Below are positions 153 through 21,404 of a stretch of DNA of 21,404 bases, piece after piece. The notes beneath the pieces are model-generated. The model was given only the letters and a program-made list of their open reading frames with translations. It searched no databases and had not been told where the DNA came from. Each line of letters starts with the position of its first letter. The first letter of the stretch is position 1. A program made the position numbers and the translations under genes. Source of the stretch: a virus. The stretch is taken from IMG/VR virus record IMGVR_UViG_3300044993_000204, positions 1 to 21,404 of that record; one strand, written 5' to 3'.

Positions 153-155
153 TTC

Positions 156-557: not shown

Positions 558-573
558 AATATAAATAAAAATC

Positions 574-1086: not shown

Positions 1087-2825
1087 TTGGTTCTACTCAA
1101 TCTAAAATTAAATCTTGCTTCTCTATTTTCAAATCCAGTATTCCAACTATAATCAAATCCTATGATGGTGATTGGAATCAATTCCGCTCCCCTAATCCAA
1201 TATACCTCAGTAGAAGTCGCAAGCTCAGCTAACCATTCACTTGTTTCATCATCTAATATATCACTCACGACTGTCCATTCATTATAATAATCTAATTTAT
1301 ACGTAGATAATGATCTATCTCTCTTTGTTGAACCATAGTTTAAATTTTTATTATAATTATTTCTAACTAATCTTATATTATTAGATTCGATGAATCTAAA
1401 AGTCCAATAATCTATACCACCTAATCGGTTTAACCAAGCTAACCTAATTGAATCAGTAAAAGATCTGAGACATTTTATTTCATAGCAAAATTTCTCACTT
1501 GAAGCTGTTAAACCAATTATAGCATTTCCACTTGTTGTTGCTAAACTAAATAAATTGGCACCACCACTTATGTTTAAATTTGTGAAATTAAAATTTGATC
1601 CTGGATTTTTAGCTGTCAAGGTGAATGTTAAAGAAGCATTATCACCAGTAAACGATATATTGTAATCATTTTTTATCAATGAGTTGGTTACTTCATTATA
1701 AGAATATAAGATAACGTTATTATATAAACTAATTGGTGATGGATAAGTTGTTGGATCAGCAAAAATTATAAAATTGTATGAACCCCAAATTATATTATAG
1801 TTATTAGTAATTTCCCAATTTCCACCAGAATCTGTTACTAAGAACTCAGCAGAAGCCCATTGTGGTATATTATGGGTTTTTTGAAGTTGGACGCAATAAG
1901 ACTTAGCATTTGGATTTAATTGAGTTAAATTAGCAGTCCCTGTTGGTATATCTACTTTTATACTTTGACTTAATCCAATCAAACTTTTACTAAACGTAGC
2001 TCCAAGATTATCGGTATACAAAACACTATGTATACTTTGAGTTGTTGACATAAGAAAAGTTAAAGTAGAGTATTCATTAGCTTGTATTGGTTGAGTTCTT
2101 GGGGAATTTGTTAAGAACTTACTTGTAGATTGACCCATGATATACCCATCAAAATTGTTACTTTCATTATAATCTAAATAATCTATGTTAGCAAGTATAG
2201 CTCTTTTAGAATCAGTTGAAAAAGTAGCCGCATTGGTATAGATGTTATAATTGGATAAAATCATATATCCAGATGAATTATTACCAATTGAAGCGGTTAC
2301 TGGAATAAAAGTATTTGAATTTGTTGATAAATTTATATAATTTACATATCCATTGGAAGCAGTTCCATAATTTATAGCCCATACTTCAGGGGAAGTAACA
2401 TTACCGCCAACAAAATCTATATCGCTTACGGTGCTTGGGGTAGCAAATGAAGTCAAATAATTATTGTTTACAACACTTACTGTTCCGAGTTTACCCCCAC
2501 TTGAAGTTCCAAAAATCCACAAACCTTCAAAAGTTTCTTGTAAATCAATTTTGTAAGTCTTAAATGATTTCGATTGAGTTGGATTGGTTATAAAACAATT
2601 AAAATCCGGCAAAACATAATCTCTCATCACGTTCTTTATATCAAGAACGCTTAGATTATTTGGTGATGTTGGTAATAAAAGAGTATTATATATTACAGAT
2701 CCATCACGAATAGTAGCTCTTATATTGAATCTTGGAGCAAATCTCATGTTGCTCTCAAAACTCCACCAATTTGTATTTAATGAACTATGAAACCCATTTG
2801 GTTGTTTTATTAATGTTATACTCAT
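1077..2825 (-). CDS. Putative tail-tip/baseplate structural protein
   Basis: The protein has 582 residues, is rich in Asn, Ser and Thr, and has no signal peptide or membrane segment. It begins MSITLIKQPNGFHSSLN and ends with a segment (W-T-V-V-S-D...E-T-S-E-W-L-A-E-L-A-T-S-T-E-V-Y-W, then a short beta-rich tail) that resembles the C-terminus of large tail proteins in many Bacteroidota phages. The middle looks like irregular beta-structure, as expected of a tail-tip or host-contact protein. It is the last gene of the long leftward virion cluster and its ATG overlaps the stop of the HK97 gp10-like gene by four bases, so it is translationally coupled. Its 3' end overlaps the convergent spanin candidate by ten bases. 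A tail role is supported by context; the exact position in the tail is unknown. Confidence 0.55.
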   Translation of the reverse strand: MSITLIKQPNGFHSSLNTNWWSFESNMRFAPRFNIRATIRDGSVIYNTLLLPTSPNNLSVLDIKNVMRDYVLPDFNCFITNPTQSKSFKTYKIDLQETFEGLWIFGTSSGGKLGTVSVVNNNYLTSFATPSTVSDIDFVGGNVTSPEVWAINYGTASNGYVNYINLSTNSNTFIPVTASIGNNSSGYMILSNYNIYTNAATFSTDSKRAILANIDYLDYNESNNFDGYIMGQSTSKFLTNSPRTQPIQANEYSTLTFLMSTTQSIHSVLYTDNLGATFSKSLIGLSQSIKVDIPTGTANLTQLNPNAKSYCVQLQKTHNIPQWASAEFLVTDSGGNWEITNNYNIIWGSYNFIIFADPTTYPSPISLYNNVILYSYNEVTNSLIKNDYNISFTGDNASLTFTLTAKNPGSNFNFTNLNISGGANLFSLATTSGNAIIGLTASSEKFCYEIKCLRSFTDSIRLAWLNRLGGIDYWTFRFIESNNIRLVRNNYNKNLNYGSTKRDRSLSTYKLDYYNEWTVVSDILDDETSEWLAELATSTEVYWIRGAELIPITIIGFDYSWNTGFENREARFNFRLSRTNYK

Positions 2826-7865: not shown

Positions 7866-8229
7866 AAAAAAAAAAATCTTCATATTCATCATTCTTAAAA
7901 ATAGCTATACCGCTATCTAAAACCACATCAGTTGGATTTAATGAATAATTAGTGGTTTGGTATACTTTATATAAGTAGGAACCACCATATCCTAATTTAA
8001 TTTTAGGTATGCTTGCTGTTAGAGCTATTGGTATTGATGTGTTTGAAACTTCATACACTTTAAAACTATTGAATCGTGTTGTGGTAGATAAATCTTGAGC
8101 TGTGAAATAGAATTTTTCATTTGATTGAACAGAAGTTAGTTCAAATAAAAAAATAGGATTATTGATAGTTAAATTATCATTTAACCTTAAACTAAAAGAA
8201 TTGGTAGCTCCTACTGATATGTTAATCAT
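7864..8229 (-). CDS. Putative head-tail or capsid accessory protein (adaptor-like)
   Basis: From the ATG at 8229 the protein has 121 residues: MINISVGATNSFSL, then mostly beta-strand patterns with FELTSVQSNEKFYFTAQDLS, FNSFKVYEV, GGSYLYKVYQTTNYSL and a final acidic NDEYEDFFF. This all-beta plan with F-x-x-(F/Y)-x-v, G-x-Y-x-Y-x-V-Y and a closing e-x-G is familiar from small virion-cluster proteins of Bacteroidota phages, whose function is undefined. A TTG at 8280 would give a longer reading, but it lies inside the hairpin of a terminator, so the ATG at 8229 is preferred. That ATG sits four bases after the element ATTACAATAT. The gene ends in a T11 run followed at once by TGA; a one-base slip there opens a 33-residue acidic extension. 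Confidence 0.55.
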   Translation of the reverse strand: MINISVGATNSFSLRLNDNLTINNPIFLFELTSVQSNEKFYFTAQDLSTTTRFNSFKVYEVSNTSIPIALTASIPKIKLGYGGSYLYKVYQTTNYSLNPTDVVLDSGIAIFKNDEYEDFFF

Positions 8230-8233
8230 ATTT

Positions 8234-8243
8234 ATATTGTAAT
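8234..8243 (-). promoter_or_regulatory. ATTACAATAT start-proximal element, copy 1
   Basis: On the minus strand the sequence reads ATTACAATAT-AAAT-ATG, the ATG being the start of the 7864-8229 gene. Exactly the same ten bases with the same four-base gap precede the starts at 11243 and 16822. TACAAT resembles a -10 box, and this copy lies only about 23 bp after a terminator, where a new promoter would be useful. A translation-enhancing role is equally possible. Confidence 0.5.
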
Positions 8244-8266
8244 CAAAATTGAAATTGTTTTCGCAT

Positions 8267-8307
8267 AAAAAAAAAACCAATCCGCAATGGGACTGGTCTT
8301 TTTTTTT
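8267..8307 (-). terminator. Intrinsic terminator after the tail-tube gene, leftward
   Basis: In leftward RNA an A-run leads into ACCAGUCC-CAUUGC-GGAUUGGU followed by a U-run: an 8-bp stem, including one G-U pair, and a six-base loop. In the rightward RNA the same position is an A-C mismatch, so the hairpin suits leftward transcription. It lies about 20 bp beyond the stop of the tail-tube gene and separates the capsid/tail-tube transcript from the portal block. Confidence 0.8.
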
Positions 8308-8329
8308 AATTATACTATGGAACTTGAAA

Positions 8330-8851
8330 CTATGGAGCTACAGGTATAACAGACTTACTTGAAACCTCATAAGGAAAATTAGTTTCACGAGCAGTAAATT
8401 CTACGGTATAGATGTTATCATCATTTCTATCTGCTCCGGTTGTTACTTCTATATTAGTTACTCTAACACCAAATTTCCTACCACTTAACCATAATTGACC
8501 ATTTGAATCTTCGTAAATAACAATTAATTTCTTACCCCTTAATAGATTAATAGCTGAATTTTTAATGGTTGATAGTTTTGGAAAAACCAAAGTTCCTATT
8601 TGACTTACCAAATCAGCGCTAAGAGTTGGTGTGTTTTTTATATCAAGTTTTGAAGTGTCTTCGCGAACATTAAATTTATAAAAATATGATGCTGTAGAAC
8701 CCATAGTAATTGAGTTGATTACCGTATTAGATGCGGTAAAACCATATGATGAGACCTTATCAAAGTCAGCTACATAAGCATTTATAATCCCACCTAAATT
8801 AATATCGCAAAAGGTCTCTAATCCTCTATCTATATCATCGCAATAAGCCAT
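8330..8851 (-). CDS. Probable major tail (tail tube) protein
   Basis: The protein has 173 residues and is beta-rich. It starts MAYCDDIDRGLETFCDINLGGI, a Cys-containing start with a G-G turn followed by YVADFD, then strands and a helix, then LIVIYEDSNGQLWLSGRKFG and a closing strand series. This plan (early C...GG, then V-x-v-x-D-x-d, D-x-N-G-x-x-x-x-G-x-x-x-G near residue 115-130, and a 'tG-x-x-x-D-x-N-x-Y-x-v-x-f' strand) matches tail-tube-type proteins of Bacteroidota siphoviruses. It follows the capsid gene by about 30 bp and is followed by a strong terminator, fitting an abundant virion protein. The role is inferred from resemblance and position. Confidence 0.6.
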   Translation of the reverse strand: MAYCDDIDRGLETFCDINLGGIINAYVADFDKVSSYGFTASNTVINSITMGSTASYFYKFNVREDTSKLDIKNTPTLSADLVSQIGTLVFPKLSTIKNSAINLLRGKKLIVIYEDSNGQLWLSGRKFGVRVTNIEVTTGADRNDDNIYTVEFTARETNFPYEVSSKSVIPVAP

Positions 8852-8880
8852 TTTATTTTTTTAATTTTTTTTTTTGGTGA

Positions 8881-9780
8881 TTAGTTGTATAGAACTACCT
8901 CAGCACCAATACCATAAGAAGGAGTATATTTAAATTGCATGGCTAACCTTGATTTTGGTTCAGCAGTTGTATTTGTCATATCCACTACGATTAATCTTTG
9001 TTCATCTGAACCTAAGTCATTTATATTCCAAAGGTTAGAAATATTAGTAGCAAACATTTGTTTAGCATTCAAACCTGGGGTTTCTTTAAGCTTATATCCA
9101 TTATAGGCTAATTCAGGTTTTTCACCAGCTTTAAAATAAGGAATGGTTAAAGCTCCGATAGCTTGACGGAAAGAAAAAGCAATTTGACGAGATACATAGA
9201 TCACGTAGTCATCTCTTTCTCTTACTTTAGCAGGAGTAGCTACAAGAACTTTTTCTATTTCACCCAATACATTTGAAGCAGTAATAGTTGAAGCTGTAGC
9301 AGTTACTTTAATAGTAGTAGGATCCGATAAAGCTTGATTTACCAAACCACCAGAACAAGAGCTTGTAGCTCCATTCCAAGTTTGAACTTCTAAATCATAG
9401 TTAACTTGATCTTTAACATATGAAATTAAAAAGTCGGTCATTTCATTTGGTCCCCACTCACCATTTAATTGACCAGCATTCATTCTTTCAGATAGGAATG
9501 TTGGTTCAATATCTTTTTTACAAATCTCAAGATTCACATAAATAGGACATACCTTTACTGATTTTCTTGATAATGTTACAGAACCAGTAGCTCCAAAATC
9601 ACAAAATTCACCAGTTTTAGTAATTCCTGATAGAGAAATTTGTGGAACCAATACTTCATTTTTTATTGAAGAAAGATTTTTCCATTCGCTTCTTGAAGAA
9701 AACTCAGCATCAATAATAGATGCGTAAAATTCAAAAGCTTGTTTACCTGAATATGTGGTATTGTTTACGAATGAACTCAT
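8881..9780 (-). CDS. Major capsid protein (HK97-like fold)
   Basis: The protein has 299 residues. The pattern VCPIYVNLEICKKDIEPTFLSERM (about 78-100), a helix with SYVKDQVNYDLEVQTWNG (around 120-137), the dimer/E-loop style alternation of strands and helices, and the final SRLAMQFKYTPSYGIGAEVVLYN are typical of major capsid proteins of Bacteroidota tailed phages with an HK97 fold. The gene follows the protease-scaffold gene by about 40 bp and precedes the tail-tube gene, the normal local order. Its leader is pure A/T (about 40 bp) with no Shine-Dalgarno sequence, as expected for Bacteroidota translation. The fold is inferred from pattern and neighbours. Confidence 0.75.
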   Translation of the reverse strand: MSSFVNNTTYSGKQAFEFYASIIDAEFSSRSEWKNLSSIKNEVLVPQISLSGITKTGEFCDFGATGSVTLSRKSVKVCPIYVNLEICKKDIEPTFLSERMNAGQLNGEWGPNEMTDFLISYVKDQVNYDLEVQTWNGATSSCSGGLVNQALSDPTTIKVTATASTITASNVLGEIEKVLVATPAKVRERDDYVIYVSRQIAFSFRQAIGALTIPYFKAGEKPELAYNGYKLKETPGLNAKQMFATNISNLWNINDLGSDEQRLIVVDMTNTTAEPKSRLAMQFKYTPSYGIGAEVVLYN

Positions 9781-9821
9781 TTTTTATATTTTATTTTTTT
9801 TTATCCTTTTTGGATTGATTA

Positions 9822-11243
9822 TTAGAACTTTTTATTCATTTTTGTAATTAAATTGTAATCAAGAGTTCTCTTTTTATTTTCAATATCACTCTGATTAATT
9901 TTATTTTTTGAATCTACAGTGTCAACTAATTTCATTTCAGCTTCCACTGTTAGTTTTTCTAATTTTACTTCGAGGTTTTCTATTGATTGTTTAACTTGGC
10001 TCATTTGTGAACCAATAAGAGAATCAATTTTTAAATTAAGGTTTTCAATCATGACCTTTAAAGCTTCAAATTGTTCAGCTAACATAGGATCTAACTCCAT
10101 TTTAGTTTCTTTTTGCTCATTTTCTTTTTGGTTTTCGGACTGGAGATTTTCGCTTTCATTTGATTTGATGTCAGCGATTTTACCACTTTCATCAACCAAG
10201 ATAGTAGAACCATCTTCTAAAACATATTCTCCAGCTTCTGGTTTAACTTTTTCTTCACCATTCATAAAATAAACATCGACACCCACTTGAATAGATTCAG
10301 CATCTGTATAAAGTGTCGAACCATCTTTTAAAATAGCACTTACCATATTTACATTTTTATTTTTTGTATCTTTTTGTAGATTTAATTCATTATGATCTAA
10401 AACAACTTCTTCTTGGAATGTAGCTCCTTTGGTATAAGATTTACCAGTGTTAATTAAGTATTCCCAAACCGCAGCTCCTACGCTTGGACTTTTCCCTACA
10501 TACCACTCACCCCATTTATTCTTACCTTCGGTTTTACACTCAGCAAGCCCATCAATTACTGATATAAACTCTGAAAAATTAACATCAAAATAAGTATATT
10601 TTGATCCATCATTAAATTGAACAACCAATTGATTATTTTCATCATTAAATAAGACTCTATCTACATTAGAAGATTTAATGTCTCTTTTACTCCATTTCTT
10701 TTGTTTAATCAATTTAGAGCTTCTTTTAAACTTAAATAATCCTTCAATGCTAAATCCCTTATATTTACCACTTTTTACACCATCCCAAATTTCATCATCA
10801 TCTACTTTCATAGATATCATCCAAGTTCCCTGTGGTAAATCAAATCCTAAATCTTTACTTTTGTCATTTTGACCAACAATCCAAGATTCATAGATATAAA
10901 CATTATTAACATCAGTTTTATGATCTTTATTTACTGAAAATTGGTCTTTAGCTTTAAAAAACTTTTGTGTAATTTTTTCAATTTGTTCTTCATTATATTT
11001 AATATAATATGGTTCACCATCATCGTCCTTTCTAAGAATCTCTAAATTTGGAATCAAAACGGGACCAGTAATGATTCTCCTATCTTCACTCAAAAAAACT
11101 TGTTTGTAAGAATCATGTTGTTCTTCTTCACTAAGATAAATAAAATCGGTTAAAATAGCTGGTTTTTTAACCAATGAGATTTTATCAACACCTAATTCAG
11201 ATTCTTCATCTATATAAACATCAAAAGTTGTTACTTCTTTCAT
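9822..11243 (-). CDS. XkdF-like prohead protease fused to KTSC domain and scaffold
   Basis: From the ATG at 11243 the protein has 473 residues; an ATG two codons upstream (11249) is the alternative. Three parts are seen. Residues 1-170 are an XkdF-type (Peptidase U35-like) prohead protease, with GPVLIPN, the candidate catalytic His in NKDHK (about 108) and the candidate Ser in KGFSIEG (about 165). Residues 190-270 fit a KTSC domain, beginning SSNVDRVLF and continuing LVVQFNDGSKYTYFDV. Residues 300-473 resemble a scaffold: MVSAILKDGSTLYTDAESIQ, an acidic linker, then long coiled-coil helices. The protease matures the prohead and the scaffold guides shell assembly before being cleaved. The start at 11243 is preferred because ATTACAATAT then lies exactly four bases upstream, as at two other genes. 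An internal ATG at 10346 could give the scaffold alone. Confidence 0.75.
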   Translation of the reverse strand: MKEVTTFDVYIDEESELGVDKISLVKKPAILTDFIYLSEEEQHDSYKQVFLSEDRRIITGPVLIPNLEILRKDDDGEPYYIKYNEEQIEKITQKFFKAKDQFSVNKDHKTDVNNVYIYESWIVGQNDKSKDLGFDLPQGTWMISMKVDDDEIWDGVKSGKYKGFSIEGLFKFKRSSKLIKQKKWSKRDIKSSNVDRVLFNDENNQLVVQFNDGSKYTYFDVNFSEFISVIDGLAECKTEGKNKWGEWYVGKSPSVGAAVWEYLINTGKSYTKGATFQEEVVLDHNELNLQKDTKNKNVNMVSAILKDGSTLYTDAESIQVGVDVYFMNGEEKVKPEAGEYVLEDGSTILVDESGKIADIKSNESENLQSENQKENEQKETKMELDPMLAEQFEALKVMIENLNLKIDSLIGSQMSQVKQSIENLEVKLEKLTVEAEMKLVDTVDSKNKINQSDIENKKRTLDYNLITKMNKKF

Positions 11244-11247
11244 ATTC

Positions 11248-11257
11248 ATATTGTAAT
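11248..11257 (-). promoter_or_regulatory. ATTACAATAT start-proximal element, copy 2
   Basis: The minus strand reads ATTACAATAT-GAAT-ATG ahead of the protease-scaffold gene. The spacing to the ATG at 11243 is four bases, identical to the other two copies. The upstream ATG at 11249 overlaps the element, which is why 11243 is favoured as the true start. A promoter for a nearly leaderless mRNA or a translation-start element are the two readings. Confidence 0.45.
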
Positions 11258-11275
11258 TTTAGTCCATCTTTTTAT

Positions 11276-13435
11276 TTAAAACTGGGCGTTGGAGTTAGAC
11301 TCTATCACCCTTACTCTTTCTTGGGTTTTTGTTATATCAGATTCAAGAACATATACTCTTTGATTAGATGGATTTCTATTTGAAATTCCTTCTGGAACAA
11401 TCACTCTTGAAGCTTCTGGTGGATTTATGAAAGGATTGAATGATCCAGATCTTTCACCGGATGAAACCGATGAATCGTTTGACCCACCAAATCCACCTTG
11501 AAGCGTTGTTGATTTAATTTTTGCTACTCTTGCGAGACCAGCAGCTATTGATAAACCAGCAGCTATTTTTGCTCTAATAAGCGATGTTGGATCACCAGGT
11601 AAAATTTGTGATGTGTAAGCTTTTTGAGCCGCAAAATAAGTAGAAATTAATGTTTCAGCTATTTGTATCTTTTTATTGTTTTCAAATGCCTTTTTAGCAT
11701 TATTTTCACTCTGATTAGCAAAAGTAGCATTGATATCATTTAATATACCAAATGTTGAATCGGCTGAGTTTATCTTAAACTCATTTAATTTTGTTTCTCT
11801 TTCTTTATCCTTATCTTCTAACTCCTTTTTTTTGTTATTATATTTTTCATTTAAGGATAATTTAGCTTGTAAGTATTCTTCTTCTGTAATTAATTTAAGA
11901 TCATATTGTTCTTTAAAAATTTGAATCTCCTTATCATTTAATTCTTTAAGTTTGTCTAAACTTAGAGTCTGATTTTCGATCTGTTTAAGTTTTTCAGCTC
12001 TAATTAAACTAAGTTGTTCGTCAAATTTCTTTTTAAGATCTTCTTTTTCTTTCTGTTGCTCCTGTTTTCTCTTATCTTCAGCTTCTTTAGCCTGTCTATC
12101 TATGATTTTTTGCCTTTCAACTAAATGAGCAGCTTGTAATTTTTCAATTAATTGAAAATTTCCTTTAGCAGATTCAATCTCCTTTTTAGCCTTTTCATCA
12201 AAAGCTGCCAATTCTTGTTGATTTTTATCATTTATAGCTCTAATTTCTGCTTCACGAATAGATTCAGCAGTTTTTTTAGCCTCTTCCGCTTCTTTTTTTA
12301 TCCTCTCTTGGCGTTCTTTGAAGGATTTATTATCAATTTCTTTGGCCGCCAATTCAAATCCAGCTAATTCATTCTTTAATTTGTTCAATGTTTCTTGTTG
12401 AGCAGCTACTTCTTCATCACCTTTTTTCTTTGTCTCTTCTGGATCAAAAATAAGATTAGCTACTCTATCTTTAAATCCCTCTCTTAACCCAAAATTCTTA
12501 CCAAAAGCTTTACCAACTTGATCTACTGTTTCTAAAATTAGAGTCAATGGTATGGATACAAAATCTAAAATACCTTTTAAGATCTCTTTATTTCTTTCAG
12601 CAGCTTTTATTTGGGCATCTCTTTGGTTTTTAGTTGTTTGTAAAACTATTTCTTGTTCTTTTATAGCCCCTTTGACCGCATTTATCTTCAGTTCTAAAAT
12701 TTCCCTTTGTGTTTTGCCTTGTCTCTTTAATATATTTTCGCTATCACTTATATTTTTTAATTCCTTTTCACTCGCATCTACTTTGGCTTTAGCACTTTCT
12801 AATAAATTTTTATCGGTTTTTGAAACACCATTTAATACCGATTTAAGTTTCTCAAAATTAGCTATCAATAGTCCCAAAGCTACAACCGCAGCTCCTATAC
12901 CGGTGGCTATTAAAGCTGTTCTAAAAACTCCCAAACTTACTGCTGTCTCTTTTATACTAAAATTAAGAACTTTATTAGCAGCGGAATATAAAGCTGCCCC
13001 AGTAGCACTGTTCTTATTAAGGGTATTTGAAACTTGTTGAATACCATTTAATATAGCTAAGGAAGAAGTTACGGTAGCTATTGTTTTTTGTAGATCCTTA
13101 TTTTCACCTGATAATAGACCAACCGCCCCAGCTGTTGAAGCAAAAGCCCCTGCGATGCCTTGAACTGCCCCTATAGCTACGTCTAATTTTCTTGTATCGG
13201 ACGCAAAATTATTAATCTCCTTTCTTGTATCGCCAATAATATCTTTAAGTTGACCAGCAGCTTTAGCAAATTTTTCACTCAAAGCCGCATTACCATTCAA
13301 GGAAGCTTCAATAGCTGCTTTTTCTAACTCTTTTAATTTAATTTTAGCAGAACTGGTTGAAGTTAAAAAATCTTCTATACTCTTTTGCGCATCACCTACA
13401 TTTAAATTTAAATCAAATACTAACTTTTTAGACAT
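11276..13435 (-). CDS. Tail tape measure protein
   Basis: The protein has 719 residues. The N-terminus (MSKKLVFDLNLNVGDAQKSI) leads into helices, then small-residue-rich stretches (about 85-200, including GAFASTAGAVGLL and a hydrophobic segment ALIATGIGAAVVALGLLIANF that can cross a membrane). A long charged coiled coil (about 365-560, rich in Lys/Glu/Gln) follows, then an Ala/Gly-rich helix (AAQKAYTSQILPGDPTSLIR, AKIAAGLSIAAGLARVAKI) and a Gly/Ser tail. This is the usual make-up of tape measure proteins, which set tail length and help DNA pass the host membrane. With the known rule of about 0.15 nm per residue the tail would be at most about 108 nm. The gene is followed by the protease-scaffold gene, which is not the usual neighbour. 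Confidence 0.8.
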   Translation of the reverse strand: MSKKLVFDLNLNVGDAQKSIEDFLTSTSSAKIKLKELEKAAIEASLNGNAALSEKFAKAAGQLKDIIGDTRKEINNFASDTRKLDVAIGAVQGIAGAFASTAGAVGLLSGENKDLQKTIATVTSSLAILNGIQQVSNTLNKNSATGAALYSAANKVLNFSIKETAVSLGVFRTALIATGIGAAVVALGLLIANFEKLKSVLNGVSKTDKNLLESAKAKVDASEKELKNISDSENILKRQGKTQREILELKINAVKGAIKEQEIVLQTTKNQRDAQIKAAERNKEILKGILDFVSIPLTLILETVDQVGKAFGKNFGLREGFKDRVANLIFDPEETKKKGDEEVAAQQETLNKLKNELAGFELAAKEIDNKSFKERQERIKKEAEEAKKTAESIREAEIRAINDKNQQELAAFDEKAKKEIESAKGNFQLIEKLQAAHLVERQKIIDRQAKEAEDKRKQEQQKEKEDLKKKFDEQLSLIRAEKLKQIENQTLSLDKLKELNDKEIQIFKEQYDLKLITEEEYLQAKLSLNEKYNNKKKELEDKDKERETKLNEFKINSADSTFGILNDINATFANQSENNAKKAFENNKKIQIAETLISTYFAAQKAYTSQILPGDPTSLIRAKIAAGLSIAAGLARVAKIKSTTLQGGFGGSNDSSVSSGERSGSFNPFINPPEASRVIVPEGISNRNPSNQRVYVLESDITKTQERVRVIESNSNAQF

Positions 13436-13444
13436 ATAAACTCT

Positions 13445-16400
13445 TTAATTTTTTAATTTAACAACAGTCATATTAGAACCTGAATAGAGAGTTTTACTAA
13501 ATCCAGTGCTTTGTAATTCTAAAGAAACACTTGATGTGAAAAAAGCATACCAAGTTCCACTAATCTGTGTTTTTTTACCAGATATCACCCATATAGAACC
13601 AGAATTATAATCATTCCCATCAATAACCAATTTGTAATTTATATAATGATTCATTCCACCGTCATTACCCCCACTAATATTCGCTTGATAAGCTATGATT
13701 CCCCAACCAGAAGCTGTTGGAGAGACTGTCATTACAGTATCCCAATCATTAGAAGCTCCAAAATCAGCATCACCAACTTGGGTATAATCCCAATTATTAA
13801 TCAAATCAGATCCGGATGTTCCTGAACTACCACTTGATCCGGATGTTCCCGAACTACCCGAACTACCACTTGATCCGGATGTTCCCGAACTACCCGAACT
13901 ACCACTTGATCCGCTGATCCCACCAATCCAATTTGAACCATCCCAAACCATTATACCTTGTGTCGCACCAGCATAAGCTATCATACCTTCTTCCGGATTA
14001 CTAATTGAGTATGGGTTTTTCTTGGTTAAAACTGGATTGTAATTATTAAATAAAAAAACATTGGGATTAGAAAATGTCTTACCGATGCCACCAAAAGAAA
14101 CAACATTATTAGTAGTTATATTTAGATTTCGACCACCAAAAAGGTAAAAATCTTTTAAACCATCAGATACAACTATATTATCACCTATTATAAAAAAATT
14201 CTTATTATTGCCAATTACTAAGTCACTACCAGCATAAACTCCGTTTAATGAATCATCTCTAAGTATAATACCATTATTACCACCTATTATGCCACCACCA
14301 TCACTAAAAAAATCACCACCAAAATTGGGATTAGGTAAATCTCCCACACCGCTCACACCACCGCTAAATATAAACCGACTTCTTTTTGGTTTAGAATCTC
14401 TATAGTCAATATAATTTAAAAACTTCATTGTGGTCAAACTATTAACACTTGGATCAAATCCTTCAATACTCAATAATGTATAGTATGCCCCATTACCATC
14501 AATCTCGAAATAATATAAATCGTTAAAATCTATTCTTGAATATAAATTAGAATTCAATCTGACTTTTAAAGTTAAGATATGTGAATTTTTATCAATATAA
14601 GTTTCAATCTCGTTTTCCCAATAATTATAATATAAACTCAGTTCTTTTAGAGTAGAATCATTTGAAGCAAATAATATAGAATCGCTTGATGGATTATTAA
14701 AATCAATAAAATTACTAAATCCTGGATACCAAGACTGGGTTACTGTTACTGATTGAGTTGCGGTAGTCCAGTAAGTATATTTGAAGGTATTATTAGTTTC
14801 TATCTTACCATTATAAAATAAAAATCTGGATTTACTATTCTTACTACCATTTTCTATGCTTGGTAAGAATATATTATTAGATGAATGAGCTGGTCTTATA
14901 ATTGTAGGGACTGCCTTTAACTCAATTATTTTCTCATTCTTAAAACAATCATTTTCAGATTCAATTAAAGCATCCCCAAAAATTCTACCTCTGGTTAAGC
15001 TGGTAAATTGTTTATTAGCGTCATCATCACCTGATGAATAGGTAAATTTATATTTCTTAGCAGCTATATCAATTAAATAATTTATATTTACATCATCTCT
15101 ATCATAGTCTAAAAAATCAACCACCTTACCCTTTTTATAAAAATCATCTCTTGGTTCAATTAAAAACTTCCTCGAGTTGTATTTATCTGGTTTGATATAG
15201 AGGTTAAACATCTTAACGATATCACCAATAAAATCAGCTTGTTTAATCTTATTAAAAAGAGGAGCAGGATTTACCAAATCTTTATCACCAACCAGGGAAA
15301 TAAAATTAACTTCATCATCTGGAAATAAATCAGCTTTATTTGGAACGACATTTTGAACTTTTTTACCTGTAACAGTAAGCGCACTAAAATAGCTATCTGG
15401 ACTCAACTTGGCATAAAATTTCAAAACATCACCACTTTTTAAATTTATTCCTAAGGGAGCTTCTTTGATTTGTAATCTACTTTGACTATTTATAATATAT
15501 CCTATTACACCGGAGTTATTACTAAAAATTGGCTTCAAAGATCCAGATTGTTTAAACCAATTCTCATTTCTCCAAATCTCCACACCTCTTCTATAAACTA
15601 CTGGAACTATAGTTAAATTATCTAATTTTTTTTCAGCATTATTTGGACTAATAAGTTGGGATACCTGTGAATTAAAATTTAACATCATATTAACTGAAAA
15701 TGCCCCATCATATGGAATCACGAACTCCCATGTAACAGGGTTATAAGATGAAAAGGGATCATGAACTAAGGTAGTAAAGGGTAAATTATTATAAATCGTA
15801 TTTGATGGTGTTGATCTATTTATATTATATGAATAACTTGGTGGGTTTCCTATACTCCATTTAACAACATCAGAACCAGGGGCATCTAATAAATTTGGTA
15901 ATATAGTAAGGTTTTTGAAAATCTTACTATTTAAAAAGTCTGATTCATATTCCCATCCCCATTTTTTAAAAATAGCATCTAAAATAGCTTTAGCTCTAAT
16001 ATAAACTTTCCATCTTTTAGGTTCAACTCCTTGGGTATGTATACCTTGACCGGTCATATACTCTAAAGTATAGATATCTGTTTCAGTAGAAATCAAACCA
16101 TATACCCAGTCCCTATTCCCATTCCAGGAATCCATCATTTCACTTTGATATTTATTATGTATCAAAAAATTCAAATCTAAATCATCATTCCAATTTCTAT
16201 TACCAAAAATAAACTTATCCCCAATATCATCGAATAAATTTTTATTATCACCAAAGAAAACACACTTGTATATTTTATTTGGCAAATCTATATCTTGTAT
16301 TTGTAGATATCCACTCAATAATAAAATACCACCATCAGTAATTAGGGCACCACATTTTTTCTTTGGGTTGAATCCGGTATCTATATTAACATTATAGATT

Positions 16401-16822
16401 TGACTAAAAATCAAATTATTATTTTCACTAAATGGGATATCAATTGTCTTACTAAAAGCTGAACTTCGTTTTAATTCCTTTAAATCAAAAATCCTTATAT
16501 TAAGGTCTATTGAAAATTCACCATCAAGTTCATTGACCGTAAAGTCGACTTGTTTTTGAACACTAACTATATTAGATAAATCACTTATACCGTAATAAAT
16601 CTTAATAAAAATGACCCAACGATTCCCAGTTGGATATTTATCATATACTTTACCTACCCAATCGGTGTTTGATTGTCGAACTCTGAGTATCTCATTGATT
16701 GGTATATCAATCGAACTCCAAATGGTTATTTCATTTCCACTTACATTTTGATACACTGAAAAAGTCCCATTGATAATTTCCCATTGATCTGAACTCCAAT
16801 TTGGTTTAATAATTAACTCCAT
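13445..16822 (-). CDS. Giant baseplate/tail protein with C-terminal fibre module
   Basis: From the ATG at 16822 the protein has 1125 residues. A TTG at 16945, inside the end of the terminase gene, is the longest possible start (1166 residues); the ATG is chosen because it has ATTACAATAT four bases upstream. The first ~850 residues are beta-rich, with a segment (LNIRIFDLKELKRSSAFSKT onward) that I recognise from large baseplate proteins of Bacteroidota phages. A Gly/Asn-rich repetitive part (about 860-930) looks like a beta-helix, then GMIAYAGATQGIMVWDGSNW resembles a fibre motif, then a Gly-Ser-Ser/Gly-Thr-Ser linker (about 972-1005), then a compact ~115-residue beta domain that may bind the host surface. 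It lies between terminase and tape measure, so a tail-tip role is likely. Residue positions are counted from the ATG start. Confidence 0.65.
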   Translation of the reverse strand: MELIIKPNWSSDQWEIINGTFSVYQNVSGNEITIWSSIDIPINEILRVRQSNTDWVGKVYDKYPTGNRWVIFIKIYYGISDLSNIVSVQKQVDFTVNELDGEFSIDLNIRIFDLKELKRSSAFSKTIDIPFSENNNLIFSQIYNVNIDTGFNPKKKCGALITDGGILLLSGYLQIQDIDLPNKIYKCVFFGDNKNLFDDIGDKFIFGNRNWNDDLDLNFLIHNKYQSEMMDSWNGNRDWVYGLISTETDIYTLEYMTGQGIHTQGVEPKRWKVYIRAKAILDAIFKKWGWEYESDFLNSKIFKNLTILPNLLDAPGSDVVKWSIGNPPSYSYNINRSTPSNTIYNNLPFTTLVHDPFSSYNPVTWEFVIPYDGAFSVNMMLNFNSQVSQLISPNNAEKKLDNLTIVPVVYRRGVEIWRNENWFKQSGSLKPIFSNNSGVIGYIINSQSRLQIKEAPLGINLKSGDVLKFYAKLSPDSYFSALTVTGKKVQNVVPNKADLFPDDEVNFISLVGDKDLVNPAPLFNKIKQADFIGDIVKMFNLYIKPDKYNSRKFLIEPRDDFYKKGKVVDFLDYDRDDVNINYLIDIAAKKYKFTYSSGDDDANKQFTSLTRGRIFGDALIESENDCFKNEKIIELKAVPTIIRPAHSSNNIFLPSIENGSKNSKSRFLFYNGKIETNNTFKYTYWTTATQSVTVTQSWYPGFSNFIDFNNPSSDSILFASNDSTLKELSLYYNYWENEIETYIDKNSHILTLKVRLNSNLYSRIDFNDLYYFEIDGNGAYYTLLSIEGFDPSVNSLTTMKFLNYIDYRDSKPKRSRFIFSGGVSGVGDLPNPNFGGDFFSDGGGIIGGNNGIILRDDSLNGVYAGSDLVIGNNKNFFIIGDNIVVSDGLKDFYLFGGRNLNITTNNVVSFGGIGKTFSNPNVFLFNNYNPVLTKKNPYSISNPEEGMIAYAGATQGIMVWDGSNWIGGISGSSGSSGSSGTSGSSGSSGSSGTSGSSGSSGTSGSDLINNWDYTQVGDADFGASNDWDTVMTVSPTASGWGIIAYQANISGGNDGGMNHYINYKLVIDGNDYNSGSIWVISGKKTQISGTWYAFFTSSVSLELQSTGFSKTLYSGSNMTVVKLKN
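13809..13907 (-). repeat. Tandem 36-bp Gly-Ser-Ser/Gly-Thr-Ser coding repeat
   Basis: Two identical 36-bp units lie at 13836-13871 and 13872-13907, and a third copy at 13809-13835 differs at one base and lacks nine bases. Each unit encodes SGSSGSSGTSGS-type residues. Copy number could change by recombination or slippage without changing the frame, since every unit length is a multiple of three. Confidence 0.9.
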
Positions 16823-16826
16823 GATT

Positions 16827-16836
16827 ATATTGTAAT
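16827..16836 (-). promoter_or_regulatory. ATTACAATAT start-proximal element, copy 3
   Basis: The minus strand reads ATTACAATAT-AATC-ATG ahead of the giant baseplate gene at 16822. The gap of four bases is the same as at 8229 and 11243. If translation instead starts at the TTG at 16945, this string would be coding (Asn-Tyr-Asn-Ile), so this copy is less certain than the others. Confidence 0.4.
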
Positions 16837-16926
16837 TTATTCTAAATTCAATTTTTATTTGATTAGATGGATCATTTTTTGAAAGTTGATATAATACATC
16901 ACTTGAATTATTATTTTCGTTTTGGG

Positions 16927-18096
16927 CTAAAATAATAATCTCCAATCTTTAACACCAGAACCCTTTAAACCCATCAATGCGTATCTTGAAGCATCAATAG
17001 CGTGATTGTAGGCGTCTACTGGAGTATCTGTAACTTTATCCTCAATTTTCTTAAATTTATAGTTTCTAAACTCTTTAATCAAATTTTCACTCCCTCTATG
17101 TAAATAAATCTTACAATCTTTCATACTCATTATACCACTAATTATATTTTTATTAGCTGGTTTTATATTCCATTCCCTTAACATTTCAACATATTCGGGC
17201 CTATGATCGCAATATATTTCGGTATATTTGTCAATTCTATCAAATCTATTCAAAATATCCTGTGGTGTTAGATGAGTTTCATATAAGATTTCTCTTAAAT
17301 ATAATTCCCATCCACTCACCCCATCATAGAGCTGAGCTTTTATGATAGTTGTTGGGTCTTTAAATCCCCAATCCACACCATAAGCTACAGAACCCAACAA
17401 ATTACCCTCACTATCTATCGGTTCATCATCGTAATAATACCAGGTATCAAAAACTAATTCAGGGGATTCACCAATCTCACCTAATCCCATGACTCTCCAT
17501 CTCCATGGATCGGTTACTTTATAATGTTCTATTTCTCTAATTAACTCTTCGGATAAAAAGGGATTATCTAAATAATTTGATTTTATTAATTTAGTCTCTT
17601 TTCTTGAATACAAATCATAAATATAGCTATAGAAATCACTTGGATTAAAATCAATAAAGATAGCTTTTCTGGTTCTTTGATTTAGTTCACTAAATATATC
17701 CCAATTTAACTCATTAGCTTCATTGATCCATACTATATCATGTGATCTACCTCTTAATTTCAAATCATTATCAGCACTAAAAAAGCATATCTCGCTACCA
17801 TTTGGGAAATAATAAGTCCATTCTGTTTTTTGATGGTATTCTTGATTGTATAAACCCCAATCTTTTAAGATACCAATCAAATCCTTCATCACCGAAGCTC
17901 TAAGAGCTGGACCAGTTCTTCTAACAATGCTAATTACCGTCTTTGGTTCGGATAGAGCTATAGAAATCATTAATTGGCACAAAGAATAAGTCTTTGAGCT
18001 ACGAGTCCCACCCATATTTATAATGAATCTAAACTTATCTTCATAAGCTTTTAGGTTGCGATCAAAAACATTAGTAGCTTTAATCTTCAGATTCAT
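16927..18096 (-). CDS. terL: Terminase large subunit
   Basis: The protein has 389 residues. The N-terminal ATPase has Walker A GGTRSSKT (29-36; a variant with SSKT for SGKT), Walker B DIVWINEANE (120-129, with Glu126 as catalytic glutamate candidate) and a coupling motif FIDFNPSD (148-154). The C-terminal RNase H-like nuclease has GVDWGFKDP (240-248, Asp242), CDHRP (296-300, Asp297) and VDAYNHAIDASRY (360-372, Asp361 and Asp368), giving the acidic triad. It drives DNA translocation through the portal and cuts the concatemer. Its start lies inside the last 17 bases of the small subunit gene. This is the most secure call in the window. Confidence 0.93.
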   Translation of the reverse strand: MNLKIKATNVFDRNLKAYEDKFRFIINMGGTRSSKTYSLCQLMISIALSEPKTVISIVRRTGPALRASVMKDLIGILKDWGLYNQEYHQKTEWTYYFPNGSEICFFSADNDLKLRGRSHDIVWINEANELNWDIFSELNQRTRKAIFIDFNPSDFYSYIYDLYSRKETKLIKSNYLDNPFLSEELIREIEHYKVTDPWRWRVMGLGEIGESPELVFDTWYYYDDEPIDSEGNLLGSVAYGVDWGFKDPTTIIKAQLYDGVSGWELYLREILYETHLTPQDILNRFDRIDKYTEIYCDHRPEYVEMLREWNIKPANKNIISGIMSMKDCKIYLHRGSENLIKEFRNYKFKKIEDKVTDTPVDAYNHAIDASRYALMGLKGSGVKDWRLLF

Positions 18097-18466
18097 CTAA
18101 ATCTAAATCTTCTTTTTTTCTATTAACTATTTCAAAAGTTATGTTCTTAATAGCTTCACCACCGGAAGTTACATCTACGCTATCGCTATATCCCCTTTTT
18201 TTGCCTCTATACCTCATGTAAAAAAGTATAGATTTTTCACTACCTTCTTTAATCTTTTCGAGTAATTGACTCTCAACAAAATCTAAGGTAATATCTTGAA
18301 TTTCATCAACAGATTTTTTAAACTCTTCATCTGTTCTACAATATTCATAAAATTGTTTTTTGCTTATTCCTACTAATTTACAAGCTGTAGTAACGATTCC
18401 CAAGGTTTTTTCTAAAGCTATTAGTAATTTTTTCTTATGATAAGCTGGATTTTTTCTTTTAGTCAT
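18080..18466 (-). CDS. terS: Terminase small subunit
   Basis: The protein has 128 residues. Residues about 12-45 form a helix-turn-helix (KKLLIALEKTLGIVTTACKL then VGISKKQFYEYCRTDEEFKK), followed by a helix with FVESQLLEKIKEGSEKSILF and RYRGKKRGYSD, the usual oligomerisation part, and an acidic C-terminus. This is the architecture of TerS proteins that bind the packaging site and feed DNA to TerL. The gene overlaps the start of the large subunit by 17 bases and starts about 40 bp after the tail-chaperone extension ends. Confidence 0.8.
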   Translation of the reverse strand: MTKRKNPAYHKKKLLIALEKTLGIVTTACKLVGISKKQFYEYCRTDEEFKKSVDEIQDITLDFVESQLLEKIKEGSEKSILFYMRYRGKKRGYSDSVDVTSGGEAIKNITFEIVNRKKEDLDLDESED

Positions 18467-18509
18467 ATATTTAAGTTAATTTTTTCTATTATAGTCACGT
18501 TAATGACCA

Positions 18510-18809
18510 TTATTTTCTATTAATTCGGCTCAATTCACGTTTTAATTCTAAGTTTCTACGTTCCACCAATATAATATGACTGAAAACTACTTGATGATTA
18601 TATTTCAAATACTTCATTACTTTTTCTAAATCATAATCAGTTACTTGGTGTAAAATGTTAAACCAAACCGCTTCATTGCTTGGTTTATTTTTTTGCTCCA
18701 ATAAACCACTCTCTCCACCTTTTTTGCCCTTTGAATCATCTGTTCGGAATAAAGATTTATAGCGATCTCTAATGACTTTTGAATAAAAAAAAACTGCGAA
18801 ATTGTCCAA
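18510..18809 (-). CDS. Frameshift-accessed C-terminal domain of the tail-chaperone-like gene
   Basis: This open frame overlaps the end of the 19285-18641 gene by 169 bp in the -1 frame. Its only upstream start is a TTG at 18809, in the body of the other gene, so independent translation is doubtful. Downstream of the T9 run at 18785-18793 it encodes 91 residues, including NEAVWFNILHQVTDYDLEKV and a basic C-terminal helix (RNLELKRELSRINRK). A W-x-x-(I/L)-x-x-x-x-x-x-D helix pair near the end resembles the shifted (T) part of tail-assembly chaperones as I remember it. A -1 slip on T-TTT-TTT joins it to residue 167 of the upstream frame and gives a 258-residue fusion. Its coding character looks as good as that of the zero-frame tail. 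Confidence 0.55.
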   Translation of the reverse strand: MDNFAVFFYSKVIRDRYKSLFRTDDSKGKKGGESGLLEQKNKPSNEAVWFNILHQVTDYDLEKVMKYLKYNHQVVFSHIILVERRNLELKRELSRINRK

Positions 18810-19285
18810 AACCCAACATGAGCGGGAGACCTATCTAACCAATCAGCAATCTTTTCTTGTTCTATATTATTATAATCATTAGCATTTAAATAAAATATAC
18901 TGATCAACTTATGACAATCTTCTATATCTGTCCATTTTTCGGCATCTATCCATTGTTCTAAACTCATATTTTTAAAATGGTTGAATCGGTATGTTTTACC
19001 ATCTACAATGATTTGTTTCTGGTTTTCTTTAACTGGTTGTTCTAAATCTAAAAATTGAATTGATTTAAAATAATCTGTCAATTGGGATAAACTCAATCTT
19101 TTAAGTTCGTCTTCGGTAACATCTGGATTTAAAATATGTAATTGAGCTATTCTCATCTTATATAAGTCTAACTCATTTTCTATTTTAGATTCCATTTGTA
19201 ATTTCAATAATCTCTTCCATTGATTCAAGGTTATATCATCAAAAGATTCTGGAACATTAAGATTTATTTTTTGTCTTACCGTCAT
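18641..19285 (-). CDS. Putative tail assembly chaperone, zero-frame product
   Basis: The protein has 214 residues. The start MTVRQKINLNVPESFDDITLNQWKRL.. fits the 'pesfddl-t-x-x-Q-(W/Y)' opening of a family common in Bacteroidota phages in tail-chaperone position. Helices follow, then a strand pair (KQIIVDGKTYRFN), then LEQWIDAEKW and a helix with AHVGFWTISQFFFIQ. The three Phe codons 165-167 are the T9 run where a -1 slip can replace the last 47 residues by a 91-residue extension. In siphoviruses such a pair (G and G-T in lambda) helps load the tape measure during tail assembly. The start ATG at 19285 lies inside the last 29 bases of the preceding gene. Against this reading, the gene lies upstream of the terminase genes and not between tail tube and tape measure. 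Confidence 0.5.
   Translation of the reverse strand: MTVRQKINLNVPESFDDITLNQWKRLLKLQMESKIENELDLYKMRIAQLHILNPDVTEDELKRLSLSQLTDYFKSIQFLDLEQPVKENQKQIIVDGKTYRFNHFKNMSLEQWIDAEKWTDIEDCHKLISIFYLNANDYNNIEQEKIADWLDRSPAHVGFWTISQFFFIQKSLEIAINLYSEQMIQRAKKVERVVYWSKKINQAMKRFGLTFYTK
18785..18793 (-). promoter_or_regulatory. Candidate -1 ribosomal frameshift site (T9)
   Basis: In the zero frame the run reads CAG TTT TTT TTT ATT. It contains T-TTT-TTT in the correct X-XXY-YYZ phase, so both tRNAs could re-pair after a one-base backward slip, and the next codon becomes TAT in the frame that stays open for 91 residues. I did not find a convincing stem-loop downstream by eye. RNA polymerase slippage on T9 is an alternative route. 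Confidence 0.5.
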
Positions 19286-19577
19286 GATTTTTATTTTTCT
19301 TTTTTGTTGGTTCCCAATTTATCAATTCTTTACCTAAATTATCACCATAATTTAGGAAATCTAATAATTTTTGGTATATTGTCATCTGACAGGAAAAACA
19401 ACCCCATCTACCAACATAGGAAGTATCACCGGATGAATCTTGATATAATTTATACATATAAGCCAATAATTCTTGACTCAATCCCCATTTTGGTGATAAT
19501 CCATATGAAAACCACTTTTGGACTTTATCTCTATTCCATTTTAAAGATTCACATTCTTGAATAATTTTATGACTCAT
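19257..19577 (-). CDS. CxxC-containing protein of unknown function
   Basis: The protein has 106 residues and no membrane segment. It has an N-terminal helix with many Lys and Trp (ESLKWNRDKVQKWFSYG), a helix at about 33-46, the stretch YVGRWGCFSCQMTIYQKLLD (Cys60 and Cys63, a CxxC pair that could bind metal or form a disulfide), and a very basic tail (KKKNKNHDGKTKNKS). I do not recognise the family. It starts three bases after the small membrane gene ends and overlaps the tail-chaperone-like gene by 29 bases, so the three are cotranslated. The basic tail suggests nucleic-acid contact, but that is only an inference. Confidence 0.6.
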   Translation of the reverse strand: MSHKIIQECESLKWNRDKVQKWFSYGLSPKWGLSQELLAYMYKLYQDSSGDTSYVGRWGCFSCQMTIYQKLLDFLNYGDNLGKELINWEPTKKKNKNHDGKTKNKS

Positions 19578-19580
19578 AAT

Positions 19581-19859
19581 TTATCTTTTTATTTTTTCTA
19601 TGACAGCATATAAAAACATCGCTATAAGACCTGTTTTTATCGCTTCTAATAAACCCAAACCGATTAGTAGACTAATTATCCACCCAATATGAAATGAAGC
19701 ACACGAGGGACAAGAAATCAAGTCAAAAAAGAACCTTTTAGATTTCGACCAATAAATATAATTTTCTATATCATAGATTTTGATTATTTGATCTCTAATA
19801 ATTTTTTGTTCTGTTATTAAATTAGCTATAGCTAAAACAATTAAATATAATTCAATCAT
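19581..19859 (-). CDS. Small membrane protein with CPSC motif (DUF1360-like)
   Basis: The protein has 92 residues. There is a hydrophobic N-terminal helix (about 2-17), a polar middle, then CPSCASFHIGWIISLLIGLG (50-69) where a CxxC pair leads directly into a membrane segment, and a last hydrophobic stretch (about 72-87). A Cys-x-x-Cys-x-x-(F/W)-x-x-G entry into a membrane helix is the hallmark of DUF1360-type proteins, which phages and bacteria carry without known function. Its ATG overlaps the stop of the sigma-like gene by four bases (ATGA). Confidence 0.6.
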   Translation of the reverse strand: MIELYLIVLAIANLITEQKIIRDQIIKIYDIENYIYWSKSKRFFFDLISCPSCASFHIGWIISLLIGLGLLEAIKTGLIAMFLYAVIEKIKR

Positions 19860-20383
19860 AGTTCCTTTTTTATTTTTTCTATTAGTTCTTTTCTCATTTT
19901 ATATATGAAAGATTGTGAACAACCAGTAATCTCTCGGATCTTTGATATACTCAAACCATCTATAAAAACATATTCAAAGAGTATTTCTTCAAAAAAATCT
20001 AAATTAATTTTTCTACCATAGATCGCATTATAGATTTTTAACCATTTTTCATTATTATAATTGTTAATTAGAAAATCTACTATTATTTCGTCATTTAAAT
20101 CTATCATTAAATCAATTTTAGTATCTATATCAATATCGGGTATATCGAAATCATCAGGAGCTGAATTTTTTAAAACTGATGGGATATAGTTTATTTTTGA
20201 ATTGGGTAATTTTAGATTTCGCATGAACCAATATGTATGAAATTTGCTTTGTGGAACTTTGTTTTTTTCTATCATAGTAATATAGTATTCACTTATTCCT
20301 TCGCGAAATCTATCTCCCAATATATCCTTAGCTACTCGCTGTATCATATCCCAATTTTCAGTAAACCATTCATTCACCGTCAT
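19856..20383 (-). CDS. Sigma-like / helix-turn-helix transcription regulator
   Basis: The protein has 175 residues. The N-terminal half is helical and polar (NEWFTENWDMIQRVAKDIL, then DRFREGISEYYITMIEKNK), the middle is acidic (DDFDIPDIDIDTKID), and the C-terminus reads YVFIDGLSISKIREITGCSQ then SFIYKMRKELIEKIKKEL, a clear helix-turn-helix of the sigma-70 region 4 type: 'eGlS-x-x-x-I-x-x-x-t-G-x-S-x-x-x-(I/V)'. Proteins of this plan stand near the terminase genes in many Bacteroidota phages and are thought to control late transcription. Its ATG follows the stop of the upstream gene without a gap. It could be the factor that reads the ATTACAATAT elements, which is speculation. Confidence 0.6.
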   Translation of the reverse strand: MTVNEWFTENWDMIQRVAKDILGDRFREGISEYYITMIEKNKVPQSKFHTYWFMRNLKLPNSKINYIPSVLKNSAPDDFDIPDIDIDTKIDLMIDLNDEIIVDFLINNYNNEKWLKIYNAIYGRKINLDFFEEILFEYVFIDGLSISKIREITGCSQSFIYKMRKELIEKIKKEL

Positions 20384-20665
20384 CTATTGAGTCAGTATTT
20401 TTTCAAGATCCTCGATGATTTCCATGATTTCATCGGAATTTAGATCCTCAGGAACCAGATAATGGACTTTTTCATCAGACATGATCATACAAAAGTGGAT
20501 TTTATCAAAAACCCAAATTCGCATGATCCTGAATGATAGCCTCGGAATATCCTTTTTGTATTCAATGGTATTTTCCGCGTCCTTTAAAACATTACACAGC
20601 CTTTTTAACCTCTGTATTTTTTGCTCCAATTCTTTCAAATTTAATTTTATCAAGCATTTCAGCAA
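20384..20665 (-). CDS. Small helical protein of unknown function
   Basis: At its longest the protein has 93 residues. The first part is a coiled-coil-like helix (LKELEQKIQRLKRLCNVLKD), followed by a strand region (RIMRIWVFDKIHFCMIMSDE) and an acidic helix (LNSDEIMEIIEDLEKILTQ). No family is recognised. There is no ATG before residue 48, so the start is uncertain: a TTG at 20665 or other non-ATG codons nearby, all within the end of the preceding gene, which it overlaps by up to 74 bases. It stops directly against the ATG of the sigma-like gene. The DNA is less AT-rich than in the virion genes. Confidence 0.5.
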   Translation of the reverse strand: MLKCLIKLNLKELEQKIQRLKRLCNVLKDAENTIEYKKDIPRLSFRIMRIWVFDKIHFCMIMSDEKVHYLVPEDLNSDEIMEIIEDLEKILTQ

Positions 20666-20783
20666 TATAATGATTTAAGATGAGATTTAAGCTCTCAATA
20701 GACTTGTAATCACCATCTAAAATTGCCCTTGTCAACTGATAGTTGTATTTGATAAATTCTTTTTTTAACTCTGCGTATTCCAT
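20592..20783 (-). CDS. Small helical protein of unknown function
   Basis: The protein has 63 residues, begins MEYAELKKEFIKYNYQLT and appears to be two or three helices (RAILDGDYKSIESLNLILNH; EMLDKIKFERIGAK). No signal, membrane segment or motif is recognised. The ATG follows an A/T-only leader of about 38 bp. The last 74 bases overlap the next gene, which is read in another frame; a single-base change in an A6 run at 20617-20622 would join the two into one protein, so the split should be verified. Confidence 0.5.
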   Translation of the reverse strand: MEYAELKKEFIKYNYQLTRAILDGDYKSIESLNLILNHYIAEMLDKIKFERIGAKNTEVKKAV

Positions 20784-20822
20784 TTTATTAATTTTTTTTT
20801 ATTATATATTATATTTAAAAAG

Positions 20823-21053
20823 TCATTTTTTTCCATTTAGGTTTTTTATGGACCTGCGCAGGATTAGTTCTTTGGACAACAGGGATTTAACCGTCCATTT
20901 GACGTAATTGAACTCCCTGTCGTTCAACTCAATGAACAACTCATCCGCATAATGTAAAATCAATTTGTCCATTAAAGGAAAATCAAGTAAATTTGGTTTG
21001 TGGTGTTTCAAAATGTATTTAATTAACCTATTCAATTCTTTAATTCTTTCCAT
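20823..21053 (-). CDS. Small helical protein of unknown function, first gene of the leftward cluster
   Basis: The protein has 76 residues and is basic and helical: MERIKELNRLIKYILKHHKP, a middle with LLDFPLMDKLILHYADELFI, and a C-terminal helix (VKWTVKSLLSKELILRRSIK) ending NLNGKK. No family is recognised. It is the first leftward gene after the repeat-rich non-coding region, the place where phage regulators or small early proteins often lie. It is less AT-rich than the virion genes (47 of 120 bases G or C in 20821-20940), so it may have a different history. Confidence 0.5.
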   Translation of the reverse strand: MERIKELNRLIKYILKHHKPNLLDFPLMDKLILHYADELFIELNDREFNYVKWTVKSLLSKELILRRSIKNLNGKK

Positions 21054-21267
21054 GTTAATTATATATATATTATATGAAGAAGTTTATTTTTTTTTTTAAA
21101 AATTTTACTTTAAAAATGCTATTTTTTTTGGTTTTGGTGAACTTTTAATGATTGAGTGATGTATTATATCAACTCCAAAAAAATAATTCGTCCAATCAAA
21201 AATAAATAGGGTTTTAAGAGGAAGATAGATAGAAGAGAGAGTTTGTTGCGTTGGATGACCTGATTAT

Positions 21268-21291
21268 TTGGACCACCGGACCACCGGAATC
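21268..21291 (+). repeat. 24-bp direct repeat, copy 1 (GGACCACC units)
   Basis: This 24-base string matches the copy at 21381-21404 at 22 of 24 positions. It is itself built from two tandem GGACCACC octamers (21270-21285), so the structure is iteron-like. It stands out as G+C-rich in an A/T-rich surround. Confidence 0.9.
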
Positions 21292-21295
21292 CGGT
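21283..21295. repeat. 13-bp palindrome ACCGGA-A-TCCGGT
   Basis: Two perfect six-base arms surround one central base. It overlaps the end of the first 24-bp repeat. Dyad symmetry of this size is typical of a protein-binding operator. Confidence 0.8.
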
Positions 21296-21299
21296 AGAA

Positions 21300-21320
21300 G
21301 AGGGAGCGTTAAGCTCCCTC
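21300..21320. repeat. Hairpin with 8-bp perfect stem (GAGGGAGC / GCTCCCTC)
   Basis: The arms are 21300-21307 and 21313-21320 with loop GTTAA; allowing one bulge the stem extends by three more pairs (GAA with TTC). No T-run follows on either strand, so a simple intrinsic terminator is less likely than a structural or binding element. Confidence 0.8.
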
Positions 21321-21360
21321 GTTCTAAAGCATTAAAGAAATTCATGTAACATCATGATAT

Positions 21361-21379
21361 ATTAATATTTAATATTAAT
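21361..21379. repeat. AT-only 19-bp palindrome
   Basis: ATTAATATT and AATATTAAT flank a single T. It directly precedes the second 24-bp repeat. An A/T-only palindrome next to iteron-like repeats could be a DNA-unwinding element. Confidence 0.75.
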
Positions 21380-21380
21380 A

Positions 21381-21404
21381 TTGGACCATTGGACCACCGG
21401 AATC
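21381..21404 (+). repeat. 24-bp direct repeat, copy 2, at the window end
   Basis: It carries GGACCATT and GGACCACC octamers in tandem and differs from copy 1 at two bases. The distance from the start of copy 1 is 113 bp. The window stops exactly at the last base of this repeat, so more copies may follow. Confidence 0.85.

Follow-up and report, generated by a model that had tools for sequence, protein, structure and literature searches.

A conserved T-run and a predicted -1 frameshift in a putative tail assembly chaperone gene beside the phage terminase genes

The G/GT tail assembly chaperones of phage lambda were reportedly treated by Xu, Hendrix and Duda in 2004. We compared with this pair a locus on the minus strand of a viral DNA of 21,404 nucleotides (IMG/VR record IMGVR_UViG_3300044993_000204; hereafter the window, meaning this whole stretch). 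Lambda-type G/GT chaperones are recognised by overlapping reading frames and by position because their sequences diverge (PMC2147016; PMC5009743). Like lambda G/GT (reviewed in PMC5009743), the window locus is predicted to give two products with a common N-terminal part, the longer of which requires a -1 shift into a second, overlapping frame, and the phage has a tape measure protein. In contrast to lambda G/GT, it is separated from the tape measure gene by three genes, the terminase among them, has a plain U9 run and a longer overlap (47 codons of zero-frame tail), and shows no similarity to the lambda proteins that could be detected in sequence or fold. Since the frame feature is present and the position feature is not, we describe the locus as one that would function as G/GT pairs do, without asserting that it descends from that family. 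The tail chaperones of Bacillus phage 0305phi8-36 are also a G/GT-like pair away from the tape measure gene, by one gene, but are encoded by two full genes without a frameshift (PMC2147016). Cellulophaga phage phi18:1 was considered as a parallel in the usual position and rejected, as its A9 run lies before the tape measure gene but the -1 shift meets a stop.

The predicted recoded gene spans positions 18510-19285 of the minus strand and would encode a 258-aa GT-like fusion. Its zero frame (18641-19285) encodes a G-like product of 214 aa, made up of 167 aa ending with the T-run and a 47-aa tail, and contains the T9 run (18785-18793) within CAG TTT TTT TTT ATT (18796-18782). The -1 frame extension, T-like, occupies 18510-18785, begins with the codon TAT and consists of 91 codons and a stop at 18510. 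These frames and the 258-aa fusion were reproduced as the first-pass annotation had described them, as was its statement that the -1 frame has a TTG as its only own start; this TTG (18809) is the sole -1-frame start codon at or before the junction. The emphasis of that annotation on the exact phase of the heptamer carries less weight, as T TTT TTT is indeed in the zero-frame phase but any T9 run holds one in every phase. Its view that the -1 frame is more protein-like than the zero-frame tail holds in relative terms (+0.10 versus -0.25 bits per codon by codon usage) but is weak in absolute terms, and all 91 codons of the -1 frame score 0.03, slightly below the lowest true-gene value. Upstream of the T9 run, 18 of 163 codons in the -1 frame are stops, so that the open stretch of 91 codons (p ~2e-5) is no chance product of composition. 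Within the window, this is the sole locus at which a slip on TTTTTTT joins overlapping -1 frames; one further slip candidate, A AAA AAG, lies in a gene-end overlap. An identical T9 run is present in a separate IMG/VR contig, 3300044994_000229, which equals the window over ~13.3 kb (window 7867-21214). The original observation holds, and a genuine frameshift is very probable.

Relatives of the locus were reached through other genes of the phages and through profile searches. A direct tblastn search of the phage collection with the zero frame gave no match, and genome contigs likewise gave none. The closest relative, G004 (IMGVR 3300047557_002182), was reached via its portal gene (portal 74%), eight IMG/VR phages (L004, L005, L018, L019, L024, L025, L026, and L028) via TerL and profile searches, and the isolate Nonlabens phage P12024L via its major capsid protein (MCP), giving, with the window, eleven distinct genomes. 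G004 encodes the zero frame of the window (42%, E 2e-46), and the -1 extension of the window is matched in a separate overlapping G004 frame (42% by search, E 7e-20), with AGT TTT TTT TTG (T9) at the junction and an extension of 99 codons. Aligned directly, the two -1 extensions are 48% identical over 85 residues (Z 28.9 versus shuffles), as expected of a conserved frame, and the first 167 aa are 44% identical (Z 56), whereas the zero-frame tails reach 21% identity (Z 2.6). In the eight IMG/VR relatives, the gene measures 208-216 aa, a T8 or T9 run lies close to codon 165, and the -1 extension stays open for 85-90 codons. The N-terminal part of the window product is more weakly related to this group (hhalign score 30.6, against a best of 20.2 in 100 shuffles), and the window extension alone, compared with those of the eight relatives or of P12024L, stayed within noise, so that only G004 bridges the extensions. 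In P12024L, gp40 and gp41, annotated as two hypothetical genes, share with the window a T9 junction (ATA CTT TTT TTT TAT), an 81-aa -1 extension, a TerL neighbour, and the permuted order terminase ... tape measure - protease - MCP - portal; they differ in that the gene follows TerL rather than precedes TerS, and their pairwise sequence similarity to the window is weak.

All eleven genomes have a T8 or T9 run at the equivalent junction (nine T in nine genomes, eight T in two), after which the -1 frame stays open for 81-99 codons, and none of them has the two parts as a single in-frame gene. The predicted fusions of the ten other genomes are 231-265 aa long. The frame overlap that holds the run measures 94-202 nt in ten genomes and 313 nt in L024, and T-runs of at least eight occur elsewhere in these genomes roughly once in every 14 kb of each strand. 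The phase of the run is 0 in the window, 2 in G004 and the eight relatives, and 1 in P12024L, and an in-phase T TTT TTT is present in all eleven, which is automatic within a T9 run. One relative (L026) keeps the run at 48% GC (52% A+T). The retention of the run in all three phases and at this GC content suggests that the nucleotides rather than Phe residues are selected; it is the run itself that seems to be conserved. The second zero-frame heptamer of the window, A AAA AAG at 18725-18719 of the minus strand, lies in the overlap at a position that is not conserved. We rejected it as the true slip site because the T-run is common to all genomes and because similarity to G004 in the -1 frame is already present over the first 20 codons after the T9 run (p 0.002; the zero frame is weakly similar too, p 0.009); it may serve as a minor slip site.

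Selection on each frame was assessed by Nei-Gojobori counts in the eight relatives, whose pairs are not independent, so that the values are descriptive. The upstream zero frame had a pN/pS ratio of 0.43. The -1 frame had 0.40 where the frames overlap and 0.28 past the zero-frame stop, whereas the zero-frame tail gave 1.12. As judged from these counts, purifying selection acts on the -1 extension but not on the zero-frame tail of the eight relatives, an outcome that bears out the first-pass expectation for a genuine -1 frame. The window-G004 pair gave 0.36 beyond the zero-frame stop. Within the overlap alone, where the linker aligns poorly, this pair showed no clear difference between the -1 frame (0.79) and the zero-frame tail (0.88). 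Taken at the level of sequence, these results support conserved recoding into the -1 frame at the T-run.

The gene order around the locus is shared by the window and G004, in which a 106- or 109-aa gene is followed by the recoded gene, TerS, TerL, a large tail protein, the tape measure, the protease, and the MCP. In the window (all minus strand), the 106-aa gene (19257-19577) lies just upstream and overlaps the zero-frame start; just downstream are the terminase small subunit (18080-18466; phrog_4044, E 3e-9) and large subunit (16927-18096; phrog_2, E 3e-36). A 1166-aa tail protein in the hub or tip position (13445-16945), with collagen-like repeats (GSSGSSGTSG) close to its C-terminus, then separates TerL from the 719-aa tape measure protein (11276-13435; phrog_24676, E 2e-16, and others). 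The next product, of 475 aa (9822-11249), combines an XkdF-type protease (PF14550) with a KTSC domain (PF13619) C-terminal to it. G004 has a GIY-YIG endonuclease gene between TerS and TerL (contig positions 23247-22948) that is absent from the window. The sister phages and P12024L show the order TerS - TerL - recoded gene - tail genes - tape measure - protease - MCP; in the eight relatives, wherever the upstream side is seen, TerL precedes the recoded gene, with one small gene between them in L018, and the tape measure lies ~5 genes beyond. Neither the window nor G001 has the gene immediately upstream of the tape measure or one gene removed from it: TerS, TerL, and the 1166-aa gene intervene in the window and five genes in G001; the recoded gene is always at least three genes from the tape measure. 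The reported location upstream of TerS instead of before the tape measure thus holds in substance, but is not unique to the window, given the same order in G004. One of the two positions is a move of the recoded gene across the terminase pair.

PHROG tape measure matches were obtained in the window, G004, G001, and P12024L, and these phages carry tape measure, portal, and protease genes. Searches for annotated chaperone families in Pfam and PHROGs gave no match, such proteins often being too diverged to match, and a PDB fold search gave no significant match. The structural model of the window N-domain is poor (pLDDT 61) and gave no fold match; the L019 N-domain model is good (pLDDT 88.8) and matched only unnamed phage proteins in BFVD, among them the zero-frame protein of P12024S (E 2e-4). 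The first-pass assignment to the tail assembly chaperones is therefore backed by the -1 fusion architecture and by a tape measure in the phage, but by neither a sequence or fold match nor a place beside the tape measure gene. From architecture and context, a lambda G/GT-like tail assembly chaperone is the best reading, and we consider it likely that the locus is one recoded gene for such a pair.

Long homopolymers are prone to error, and the T9 run could in principle reflect a sequencing or assembly artefact, or a broken gene, with the true gene being one frame. The same layout in eleven divergent genomes, one of them an isolate, the identical T9 run in another contig from this virus, and the change of the selected frame at the run make this extremely improbable. 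It also seems very unlikely that the locus comprises two separate genes with the -1 frame translated from its own start. The TTG of the window and the annotation of P12024L gp41 from an internal ATG would suit such an arrangement; the eight IMG/VR relatives, however, have no -1-frame ATG before codon 75, none appearing until the last ten or so codons, and the lack of an early ATG argues against an independent start. Their few GTG and TTG codons, from codon 44 or later, are not shared, and the conserved residues start right at the junction. A genuine recoded gene may instead have another role, for example in packaging or head assembly, as its terminase neighbour might suggest: TerS or TerL adjoins the gene wherever the flank is seen, and homology to known chaperones is lacking. 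Against this, the next genes in the sister phages are tail-completion-like (HK97 gp10-like position) and are followed by tail genes up to the tape measure, and no second chaperone candidate was found in the window, so that we regard another role as quite unlikely.

The same fusion would arise if RNA polymerase added one U at the run and the altered mRNA were translated in the ordinary way. The signal is a bare homopolymer of 8-9 T, exceeding the seven that a ribosomal heptamer needs, its phase varies between genomes, and slippage on T or A runs is established in bacteria according to references given in PMC3711429. No consistent downstream RNA structure accompanies the run: a search for stimulatory structures other than pseudoknots found none beyond chance (folding z-scores -1.7 to +1.2), and an SD-like GGAGGTG was seen by eye in some relatives only. 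Because no stimulatory structure stands out, slippage by RNA polymerase is a possible, if somewhat unlikely, source of the fusion. Every run also holds an in-phase T TTT TTT, however, two are only T8, and the chaperone recoding known so far is ribosomal (PMC5009743). By analogy with those systems, we prefer ribosomal -1 slippage on U UUU UUU. A G/GT-like pair of a separate fold family, moved beside the terminase and making its long form via RNA polymerase slippage on the T-run, appears doubtful as a combined reading.

Under the preferred ribosomal slippage, most ribosomes would read the zero frame and make the 214-aa G-like protein, and a minority would slip back one base on U9, with tRNA-Phe re-pairing on UUU UUU, to give the 258-aa GT-like fusion with its 91-aa C-terminal domain from the -1 frame. 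By the lambda analogy, the N-terminal part common to both products is expected to bind the tape measure protein, with the -1 domain recruiting the tail tube protein. We infer the chaperone function, the product ratio, and slippage by the ribosome rather than by RNA polymerase. P12024L gp40 and gp41 belong to phrog_32199 and phrog_38404, two PHROG families of unknown function, and the analysis links these as halves of one probable recoded gene. If the chaperone assignment is correct, rules that seek the chaperone right before the tape measure would miss a whole phage group. These T8/T9 sites, a natural series lacking obvious stimulators, offer material for comparing ribosomal and polymerase slippage.

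Outside these genes, a 133-aa ORF of the window (156-557, plus strand) has no Pfam match and contains a DPCAGFG motif that makes it methyltransferase-fragment-like by eye. The last ~190 bases of the window (21215-21404) differ from contig 3300044994_000229, which may represent a real breakpoint or an assembly end. Upstream of the common part, that contig encodes a 456-aa protein (133-1503, plus strand) with an IPHLFIHDSV motif, polymerase-like by eye.
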